Shown here one piece after another: positions 1-29,178 of a stretch of 64,000 nucleotides of DNA. This stretch comes from Otis tarda. Taxonomy: Eukaryota; Chordata; Aves; Otidiformes; Otididae. The stretch is taken from NCBI GenBank assembly GCA_026413225.1, contig CM048552.1, positions 134,181,053-134,245,052 on the forward strand, given 5' to 3'. Every line of letters begins with the position of its first letter. Position 1 is the stretch's first letter. A program made the translations under genes and the position numbers. The notes beneath the pieces are model-generated. The model was not told where the DNA came from. It saw only the letters and a program-made list of their open reading frames with translations, and did not search any database.

Positions 1-6
1 ACATAC

Positions 7-164
7 CTCATGCCAGCAGTTGTACATTATCTGGTAGATGATGTCTGAAACCAGTTGCGGTCTATAAAGTCTATATCCTTGAGAAACTTTCTCAGTCACC
101 TGCAAGTTATCATAAAGCTCATAGGGCTGCTTTCCCAAAGTGAACACCTCCCACATTAAGATAC
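7..164 (-). CDS. BMX: BMX kinase C-lobe exon (158 bp)
   Basis: This exon reads ILMWEVFTLGKQPYELYDN and continues through RLYRPQLVSD to YQIMYNCWHE, the helix F to H part of the kinase C-lobe. The acceptor is TTTTGCAG at 172-165 and the donor is GTATGT at 6-1. The first two bases complete a glycine codon started in the upstream exon. The 158 bp size is what I recall for the matching BTK exon. No lesion is visible here. The terminal coding exon lies beyond the window. Confidence 0.93.
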
Positions 165-2104
165 CTGCAAAAATATTCACGGCAATGGAAGACAATAAAT
201 GAAAATCAAGAAATGCAAGATAATCCCTTTTTCCCAAAACAAGACACACACGCAAGATGTAACTGATCAGACTCTTTACAGAGAATTTTTTCCAAAGAAA
301 GTATGGAGATGACTGACAAGTGTGATTCTGTACCCAAATGTAAAACGACTCAACTGCAGTAGAAGGTGAAATCAGATTATACAGCTAGTTATGAAATATA
401 TTTAATATGGAAAATAAGGCACAAAGCCCAAGACATAGCAATTCATGGATTGTAAGTTTTACAAAATACATACAAACATCCCCTTATATATGTGTGTGTG
501 TGTGTAAACAGAAAGAAGGAAGGAAAAACAGTGACAGCTATAAGTATCTATGTTTTTATAGAAAAAATTATAAGATATTTTTTTACTGATTTTCTGAAGT
601 GAGTGTGATATATATTCCTTTGGTATCAGAAAGATTTCTGAATGCTTTACAGTGTCAGAGACATATACCTATAAAAACTGAATTATACTGAAGCAACAGA
701 AACACTGGATAATATAATAATTATGAATTCATAATGATAGCTTTGCAAGAAATGATTTTTGTTGTAACTGAGCATCTGTGATAATCATGCCAATCATAAA
801 GTAAAAAAAAAAAATATTGTGCAATATTTATTTCACAATGATATATAATACTGTCAGTAATTATTTTTTTAAAAAATAAATTTACTTGACCTTTGGCTTC
901 CCCCCAGTTTGAAGGCTGGAGCATTGTAGTATCTCAGTGGGATCAGAATAAAATAGTACCTGAATCCCAGCTTTCCCTGATGAGAACATTAAAAAGCCAA
1001 GGCTATTTGTTCTCTGACATCTGCTTTCGGGATATGAATACATTAGTTCACTTTTTTAGTGAACTAAAGACTCATTAGTTTAAAACAAACAAGCAAGGCC
1101 TGATGGATCCCACTTTCCCCTTGCTTCCACTGCATCCATGGATAGTGTTAAAATGAGAAAAGACCTTCTGAGGAAAAATAATGTTTCTCATTGAAGTTAA
1201 TGCCAATATTGAAGTTAATGACAATAAAGCCTGGAGCCAGGATTTCATCGATAAGAGCAAAAAGAAAATGTATCACCAGAAAATCCAAGTTATGATTTAA
1301 TCTCATATATTATAAACAACTTGTAATGGGCATGAGTGAGCTGTTTCTCTGCCAGAGGCATTAATATTGGGAAACTAGCTGAAGTTAAACATAAGAAGCA
1401 GCCTAGCATTTGGAAACACTTTCATCTGCTTTATTCACCATTATTCCATGTCAAGAACACTGGGTTGTAAATCGTTCATCAACTTGACAGCTGCCAAAAT
1501 TTTCCTACTGGAGGAGCAAACTCATGTAAGTGGAATTTAAGCCTGTTCACAAAAGGTTCCCTTTCCTTTGACACCTTTTTCAGACTCTTAGAAACACTGA
1601 ACAGACTCCAGGGATTTGTAAATCATACCTTGAAAACCCCTAAAGTGGAAGTTCAAATATTTTAAATTCCTGGGTAGAAAGTGATCTGCAAATGCATCTT
1701 ATTTTTGCCAAGATACAAAGTCCCAGCTCTTCCACAGCTGGCTCATGCACAGAGTCCACTCTGACCTCTGGACTAACAGAAAAGCTCTTTTGACTTGGGC
1801 ATCGGAGATTTATGGTCTAGATACACCAAAGATACTGTTTGATCTCCACTGCCAACAGTTTACTTTACCATATTAAACACATAAAAGGAAATGAGAAGCA
1901 GGCAGGGTTTCCATGTGCCTAAGAGAAAAACAGTAGGGCTAAAAAATTCCAAAGAGGATAGGGCTTGGGTGTATAAAACTGTTAAACAAGAACATAAGCT
2001 GTAACTGCTTTTTACATTCCTGCAGTGTGTATATGTCTAATATTTCCACTTAGGAAACTGAGGAGATCCAAATGTAATGCGTATATGTCAAATTCTGTAC
2101 GTAC
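165..2104 (-). other. BMX intron (kinase C-lobe)
   Basis: Unique AT-rich intron sequence with a short GT run near 491-503 and a small perfect hairpin at 1043-1067. I see no coding exon or recognisable transposon in it. Confidence 0.6.
1043..1067. repeat. 10-bp perfect inverted repeat, 5-nt loop
   Basis: TTAGTTCACT and its exact reverse complement AGTGAACTAA flank a TTTTT loop. It lies in a BMX intron and has no evident role. A run of Ts in the loop and the AT-rich context make chance origin plausible. Confidence 0.6.
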
Positions 2105-2223
2105 CCAAGGCCCATACATCTGACTTGCTGCTAAATCTGGTGTAATGAAAAACTTCTGGTGCTGACCACTTCACTGGAAATTTGGTTCCTAGTGAACTTA
2201 TATACAGGTCATCCAGAACATAC
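2105..2223 (-). CDS. BMX: BMX activation-segment exon (119 bp)
   Basis: This exon encodes [19 protein letters not shown] followed by [20 protein letters not shown], the activation loop and P+1 loop with the autophosphorylation tyrosine in LDDLY and the APE-type SAPEV motif. The acceptor is CTTGTAG and the donor GTACGT. Both ends fall in split codons that rejoin correctly with the neighbouring exons (R before, G after). The 119 bp length is the one I recall for this exon in BTK. It is intact. Confidence 0.93.
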
Positions 2224-27938: not shown

Positions 27939-28043
27939 CTGAAAAGGATATTTTCTCGCAGGAGGTGTGGATTCCTCAAGATTCACTGTCTCAACACATC
28001 AGATTTTCTCAATCTCAATTGACCCCCTTTTGCTTCCTTTTTT
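27939..28043 (-). CDS. BMX: BMX PH domain exon with internal TGA
   Basis: Read in the family frame it gives GSKRGSIEIEKI, stop, CVETVNLEESTPPARKYPFQ. It aligns with human GSRKGSIEIKKIRCVEKVNLEEQ, so the stop (TGA at 28001-27999) sits where human has Arg. Both sides of the stop remain clearly PH sequence. The donor is GTTAGC. The acceptor is either TCTTAG at 28044 or, to keep phase with the first exon, an AG seven bases further in (exon start 28036). Confidence 0.88.
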
Positions 28044-29044
28044 CTAAGAGAGACAAAACACAGCAGGCTGTAAACTAATGTTAACACAATATAAAGTATT
28101 CTAGTTTGATGATTTTGTACAATTTTGTGTTTCAAGCTGTATAAGTCATAGCTTCAAGTTTGTTAAACTTCAAAGCAAATGTAGTAAAGACATTTAGTTG
28201 GTGCCCTACCTGCATCTAATATATGGATCGAATTCCTTTTAAAGTCAGTTACAAGAGTTACAGGACACAGCCCTACATCTTCTGCAACTGCAGGAGTACA
28301 GAGCAGAATGGGGGACTAGGAGGAAAAGAAGAAGGAAGAATTAAGAGGAAAATACCATGAGTACAAACCAGAAGCCTAGCTGTGGCATCTGTAATGTTGT
28401 TAAGGCAATGGAGCTTATTCTCACTGAGCTTCCCTGCAGTTTTGTAATGGGATGTAACACACAGGAGGAGTCCAAATGAATGAAAAGGAGCAAAAACTTT
28501 AAAACGAGTTGCCTGGGACATATATTTGCATTCCTAATGGGAGATCTTCTGAGTGAAAAGCCATCCTTTTGTGATATACAATCACTCCTTAGGAAACAAG
28601 GATAATTTAACCATCTGCTTTGTGCAGCTCAGGGATGAGATTCTGTTAACTAATTAGGCCTCATACAAGTAACTTCTGAAGCCAGTTATTTACATCAGTT
28701 CAGAGGGAAGCCTGAACAAAGAAAACATCCTTATTTGAGACAATGTGCAAACATATGCCAATGTTAATTACTTGCTTAAGTTCTCTGTGGAAGGACAGAA
28801 ACAGATGCTCAATGGTAAGCACAACAGTAAGAGTTGTTCTGAATAAAGATACTCTTAATCCTGTGTTTAAGTGTTTTCCTGGACTGAAACTAGGATTTGA
28901 TACTCTATAATTCTACTCAGAACAAAGTACATCTGTTGTTCTAACACATAATGTCTAATCAAGTTTCACAGAAGAAAACGAGAGGAATAAAGGGACATTG
29001 GAAAATCTTAGAACAGTTTACTTACTTAAAAAAAAAATTCTTAC

Positions 29045-29178
29045 CCCTTTGTCATATTCATAATAAGAAAGGTTTGCTTTCGTCAGAACAATCTTTTCTT
29101 GTAATTAATTGGTGATATTTTTTTCTTCTGTTGTGACTTCTTTAAAAGAAGTTCTTCTAGAATTGTTTTCTTCTCCAT
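29045..29178 (-). CDS. BMX: BMX first coding exon with frameshift
   Basis: The ATG at 29178-29176 opens [20 protein letters not shown] then [11 protein letters not shown], matching the human BMX start [20 protein letters not shown]. After RLF the frame jumps. Where human has [15 protein letters not shown], this copy lacks four bases and resumes in another frame as [12 protein letters not shown]. In the original frame a stop follows RLF at once. The donor GTAAGA at 29044 is intact. Any 5' untranslated exons further right cannot be recognised from sequence alone. Confidence 0.9.

Follow-up and report, generated by a model that had tools for sequence, protein, structure and literature searches.

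In the crane, the chicken and many other birds, BMX presents the same succession of domains (PH, Btk zinc motif, SH3, SH2 and kinase), and the bird BMX proteins in the database are mostly 614 to 659 residues long. In mammals, the protein acts in endothelial and myeloid signalling. The chicken gene, also on chromosome 1, is listed with a coding variant at position 121349181 of that chromosome (PMC6210987). The gene analyzed here lies in a 64,000-nucleotide stretch of the genome of the great bustard, Otis tarda (G000:C1:134181053-134245052; hereafter the window), and differs from these database genes in carrying three stop codons and two frameshifts. We put at roughly 95% the probability that it is the original, single-copy BMX gene, killed by accumulated mutations, and hence a unitary pseudogene that was dead before the great bustard and the houbara bustard, Chlamydotis macqueenii, split.

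A tblastn search with the crane BMX protein (P0126) and a human BMX sequence placed the BMX exons in order on the minus strand; they start with an ATG at 29178 and run as far as the left end of the window. Seventeen coding exons fall within the window (29178 to 7) and the eighteenth lies beyond its edge, at L009 9035-8961; all 17 introns have GT-AG ends. Once spliced, the sequence measures 1942 nucleotides compared to the 1953 of a 650-residue bird BMX, the difference of 11 being accounted for by losses of 4, 1 and 6 bp. An earlier note on this stretch, made from the letters alone, had counted thirteen firm exons; their order and their GT-AG borders hold, and the count was too low, with additional small exons starting at 22907, 15493, 13320 and 12242.

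The damage is spread along the gene (codons are numbered throughout as in the crane protein). The first of the 18 coding exons (29045..29178, minus strand, as are all those that follow) has lost 4 bp near 29088, at codons 31-32, with a resulting frameshift. The next exon, in the PH domain (27939..28043), carries an in-frame TGA at 28001-27999 in place of Arg codon 61. A further PH exon (25550..25631) precedes the exon of the Btk zinc motif (24699..24818), where the fourth zinc ligand, Cys143, is changed to Trp (TGG, 24717-24715); the assignment of this residue as a ligand is one that we carry over from BTK. Downstream of the proline-rich linker exon (22846..22907), the SH3 exon (15316..15493) has lost 1 bp near 15424, at codons 193-194. 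Then come the exons for the SH3 end (13258..13320), the SH3-SH2 linker (12183..12242) and the SH2 start (11350..11404), an SH2 exon (9695..9774) in which the FLVR-type Arg297 is replaced by Trp (9750-9748), and two open exons, one in SH2 (7989..8116) and one in the SH2-kinase linker (7476..7550). The exon for the N-lobe of the kinase (6576..6741) combines a 6-bp loss near 6671, removing codons 407-408, with a TAA near 6604-6602 at Glu codon 431. The other kinase exons in the window are open: 5442..5658, where the HRD motif is kept, 2689..2753 with the DFG motif, 2105..2223 with the activation segment, and 7..164. Finally, the last coding exon, outside the window, holds an in-frame TAG at L009 8999, codon 639. 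The earlier note had recognized the first two of these three stops, the 4-bp frameshift, the in-frame 6-bp deletion and the SH2 change, all of which are present in the DNA; its list lacked the 1-bp SH3 loss, the C143W change and the terminal TAG.

As a consequence of these lesions, the frame opened by the native start can be read for 31 codons only. The longest ATG-started stretches left in the spliced sequence span 286 and 200 codons and neither includes the whole kinase domain. With so short a native frame and the kinase frame cut in the N-lobe, the DNA as read shows that no working BMX protein could be made. To place the residue changes in context, the conceptual product was aligned with 73 database proteins, hand-picked from 251 identifiers so that most species are represented once and by a protein close to complete. 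Position 143 is Cys in 71 of the 74 sequences, Trp in the window and the houbara, and Tyr in a sandgrouse. Two other changes were discarded as lesions. The SH2 Arg297 to Trp replacement, which the earlier note had taken as the loss of a key residue, is not diagnostic of a dead gene since it also occurs in the BMX of two falcons (Falco and Herpetotheres), a seriema (Chunga) and a nightjar (Nyctiprogne). None of these records carries a low-quality label, and three of them are partial; non-Arg letters in the same column in Opisthocomus, Tauraco, Mesitornis and Alectura look misjoined and were not counted. Likewise, the change of the first SH3 Trp (Trp221) to Gly was set aside, as 11 sequences besides both bustards are also non-Trp there.

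Among the matches listed, the protein with the highest identity was the houbara BMX (P0155), with 93% identity over 71% of the query; its source labels it LOW QUALITY. In a quick tree of the 74 sequences, all of them BMX, in which the frame-shifted or misjoined letters of the houbara protein (residues 9-19 and 310-317) were replaced by X, the two bustard sequences paired with a Shimodaira-Hasegawa-like approximate likelihood ratio test (SH-aLRT) value of 100. In the houbara protein, exactly the residues of codons 31-32, 61 and 639 are absent, and positions 143 and 297 are both Trp. The 1-bp loss of the SH3 exon is not seen in it. It keeps codons 407-408 and 431, deleted or stopped in the window, which marks the record as that of a different species. 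Since four lesions (codons 31-32, 61 and 639, and C143W) are found in the separate records of two species, sequencing error is excluded for these four and the inactivation precedes the split. To the extent that a corrected protein can stand for its gene, the shared lesions show that BMX was inactivated before the two bustards diverged; the earlier note had described the loss in this one bird and proposed looking for the lesions in other species, and their presence in the houbara shows that the loss is not confined to this bird.

The houbara protein has damage of its own. Single residues are gone at 10, 109, 390 and 451, the frame is shifted near codons 12-18, and the catalytic Asp of the HRD motif is replaced (D511Y). 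The single residues missing at 61, 109, 390, 451 and 639 correspond to Arg, Glu, Glu, Tyr and Ser, each of which can be one change away from a stop codon. Two of these gaps, at 61 and 639, coincide with stops that can be read in the great bustard DNA. Presumably, a corrected stop is marked by an X that the database omits. We propose that BMX, once inactivated in the common ancestor of the two bustards, drifted in each lineage, where it acquired private stops, deletions and losses of key residues, as far as the limited protein-level data show. Nonsense-mediated decay would be expected to clear any BMX transcript, and the remaining genes that we take, from their Btk motifs, to be BTK, TEC and ITK may cover the role of BMX.

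The alternative that survives best, though we regard it as unlikely, holds that the N-terminal half was lost first and that a shorter product, comprising SH2 and kinase or the kinase only, remained useful until the split, after which each lineage lost it on its own. In its favor, the disabling lesions within the kinase core are all private to one species, and the shared ones affect the N-terminus and PH domain, the Btk motif, the SH2 Arg, and the last 12 residues, which the codon 639 stop removes. The total divergence of the pair also appears lower than neutrality would give. Great and kori bustards differ at 6.25% of nucleotides (PMC10354230); we estimate that a fully neutral gene at this distance would differ at about 13% of residues, a figure that applies here if the houbara is equally distant. 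The two BMX sequences differ at 29 of 584 residues. For these pair comparisons, residues 9-19 and 310-317 of the houbara, which are frame-shifted or misjoined, were masked. Against it stands the distribution of the changes. The kinase differs at 12 of 261 residues and the N-terminal part at 17 of 358, so that both parts change equally after the split (ratio 0.97), unlike in intact pairs: among 892 pairs treated as intact and having 15-60 differences, the median ratio is 0.37 and none reaches 0.97. Furthermore, the stop shared at codon 639 would cut the last helix of the kinase, judging from the kinase fold.

Other measures bear on whether constraint was lost. Three of the 73 database proteins (houbara, sandgrouse and the parrot Nestor) were kept out of the reference set, and the other 70 (66 birds, three turtles and one gharial) were treated as open. 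At sites otherwise invariant, the window carries new residues at 7 of 205, 6 of them common to the houbara, compared to a median of 1 and a maximum of 7 in the 70 open sequences; Nestor has 6 of 203. Between the window and the houbara, differences affect 5 of 193 invariant sites and 24 of 391 variable sites, a ratio of 0.42. In pairs treated as intact, the corresponding ratio is 0.044 at the median and reaches 0.346 at most (337 of 2415 pairs, those with 15-45 differences at variable sites). As protein-level proxies, this ratio and that of kinase to N-terminal changes point to a loss of constraint, with the missense load, a ratio still below 1 and the low divergence pointing the other way. The load of missense changes was dropped as the sole separator of the window from open genes, given the tie with Piaya.

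Several observations weigh against the reading of a dead gene. All of the splice sites are still GT-AG. In missense load, the window (7 of 205) does not exceed Piaya (7 of 214), the most divergent gene treated as open. The ratio of invariant to variable changes between the bustards is below 1 (Fisher p = 0.07 against equality), and the 29 replacements noted above amount to a low divergence. The stops of the houbara are deduced from residues missing in a corrected protein and were not read in DNA. Lastly, the open set used as a reference includes partial records (the shortest of 547 residues) and some misjoined ones, and its species pairs are not independent.

An error of sequencing or assembly, by which a working BMX would have been misread, appears very improbable. 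The great bustard assembly was made from Oxford Nanopore Technologies (ONT) reads with short-read polishing (PMC10354230), and the private 1-bp loss is of a kind that such reads can yield. The stops and the missense lesions are substitutions, however; the lesions at codons 31-32, 61 and 639 and the C143W change recur in the protein record of another species, none of the 17 splice borders is broken, and the exons matched in the neighboring genes are open.

The weakest alternative, in which this would be an additional copy, processed or duplicated, and the true BMX would lie at another place, is refuted as far as the assembly is complete: nothing was found in its favor, introns and synteny are retained, and no other BMX-like match came up. 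The genome searched comprises 1.198 Gb in 116 contigs. Crane BMX gave 71 matches, with 68 of 388 first-look candidates scored; seven at 78-88% identity and one at 62% all map to this locus. The best match elsewhere has 76% identity over 42 residues, and we take it to be BTK; places resembling BTK match crane BMX at 56-76%. A second, intact BMX, whose existence the earlier note had named as grounds for refutation, was sought and none was found: every match above 76% identity lies at this locus, in a search of the 1.2-Gb genome that scored 68 of 388 candidates and is as complete as the assembly. A search of the genome with the Btk motif (195 candidates, 150 scored) identified 8 places, one of them this locus; the others we assume to be BTK, TEC, ITK and RASA-type genes. 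The gene itself is closest to bird BMX rather than to BTK, TEC, ITK or TXK, its best matches reaching 93% identity over 71% of the query.

Searches with pieces of human neighbor genes showed BMX to be flanked by ACE2 (C1:134162-134167k) on one side and, on the other, by remnants of PIR, followed by VEGFD (134288-134296k) and PIGA (134310-134314k). The order ACE2-BMX-PIR-VEGFD-PIGA is the same in mammals. Within their matches, the exons identified for ACE2, VEGFD and PIGA read open, apart from stops that we read as the alignment overrunning the end of an exon. The earlier proposal of a unitary BMX pseudogene at its original locus is supported: the gene occupies the ancestral position with its introns and neighbors kept, several independent lesions have accumulated, lesions are fixed across the two bustards and no other copy was found.

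Three features of the BMX introns were recorded in passing. One SH2 intron contains an array of about 1 kb made of 161 copies of TCCCTT (8454-9440). The largest intron harbors a direct tandem duplication (18156-20745) with a spacing of about 1457 bp and copies 96-100% identical. An intron of the kinase region includes an open stretch of 301 residues on the minus strand (4118-5023) that, in our judgement, resembles a CR1 reverse transcriptase; a similar piece lies on the plus strand at 31668-32030.

PIR, which encodes pirin and lies head-to-head with BMX, is reduced to remnants on the plus strand. One exon remnant with an in-frame stop lies at 44007..44069 and a second, of one or more exons, with a stop and a frameshift, at 44794..44975. 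A weaker, PIR-like remnant of the last exon, also with a stop, is found outside the window at C1:134264708-134264813 (plus strand, E 0.23). A query made of three pieces of the remnants, joined in pirin order, matches human pirin chains at 1e-19, an E-value that this joining makes flattering; searched singly, the pieces gave E-values of 4e-4, 6e-4 and 0.007. A Pfam scan of the remnants returned no family. A search for an intact PIR elsewhere, made with the pirin domain, matched nothing in the genome, compared to 8 of 14 control genomes with a match; those controls are all prokaryotes and the search yielded no first-look candidates (0), so that a pirin gene split by introns may be missed. Since PIR is far more decayed than BMX, its death probably came before that of BMX.

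Numerous birds from across the tree have BMX proteins in the lists that are not marked as low quality. For passerines, no row under the name BMX appeared among the best 120 of 466, 3260 and 1953 hits in three protein searches; each row stands for a cluster at 90% identity and carries a single name, or in some cases none, so that passerine members could be hidden. One of the three lists includes clusters of TXK from Promerops (18 members) and Chloropsis (132) and of ITK from Ptilorrhoa (65), all three of which we take to be passerines. The BMX protein of the sandgrouse Pterocles gutturalis (P0210, LOW QUALITY) has changes at 20 of 205 invariant sites, the most of all sequences, including C143Y. 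It resembles the bustard gene in having lost Cys143 (to Tyr) and the SH2 Arg (to Trp) and in lacking single residues whose codons one step could turn into a stop; it differs in that its lesions are mostly others, and it is known from a corrected protein. The decay in the sandgrouse is probably independent of that in bustards, judging from these records. Overall, the comparison suggests that constraint on BMX may be weak or fading in some birds, the bustard case alone being shown.

These observations leave room for a broader and more tentative proposal, to which we give slightly less than even odds: that BMX was lost repeatedly in modern birds, being dead in bustards, apparently decayed on its own in the sandgrouse, missing from passerines and deprived of the SH2 Arg in several open genes, and that in bustards its neighbor PIR died first and BMX followed. 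A natural BMX knockout across a clade of large birds would show the kinase to be dispensable there and, as a loss that can be dated, lends itself to asking what compensates. If passerines are also without BMX, more than half of bird species would have to do without one of the five Tec kinases, and such an absence, if true, would bear on the use of songbirds as models of vascular biology and of immunity. The decayed PIR next to BMX can serve to test whether genes in head-to-head pairs die together.

No report of BMX loss in birds was found in the open-licence literature, in the portions of the result lists that were available, and in the part of its main text at hand the great bustard genome paper makes no mention of BMX, pirin or pseudogenes (PMC10354230). 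Unitary pseudogenes themselves are known. In birds, judging from titles and abstracts, the CNR2 gene of parrots and RIG-I and MDA5 provide examples in which, as here, a gene was lost within a bird clade; those losses concern other genes and other clades. Next to them, bustard BMX stands as a new example of a unitary pseudogene, one for which the searches gave no earlier report and which is ancestral to at least two bustards.

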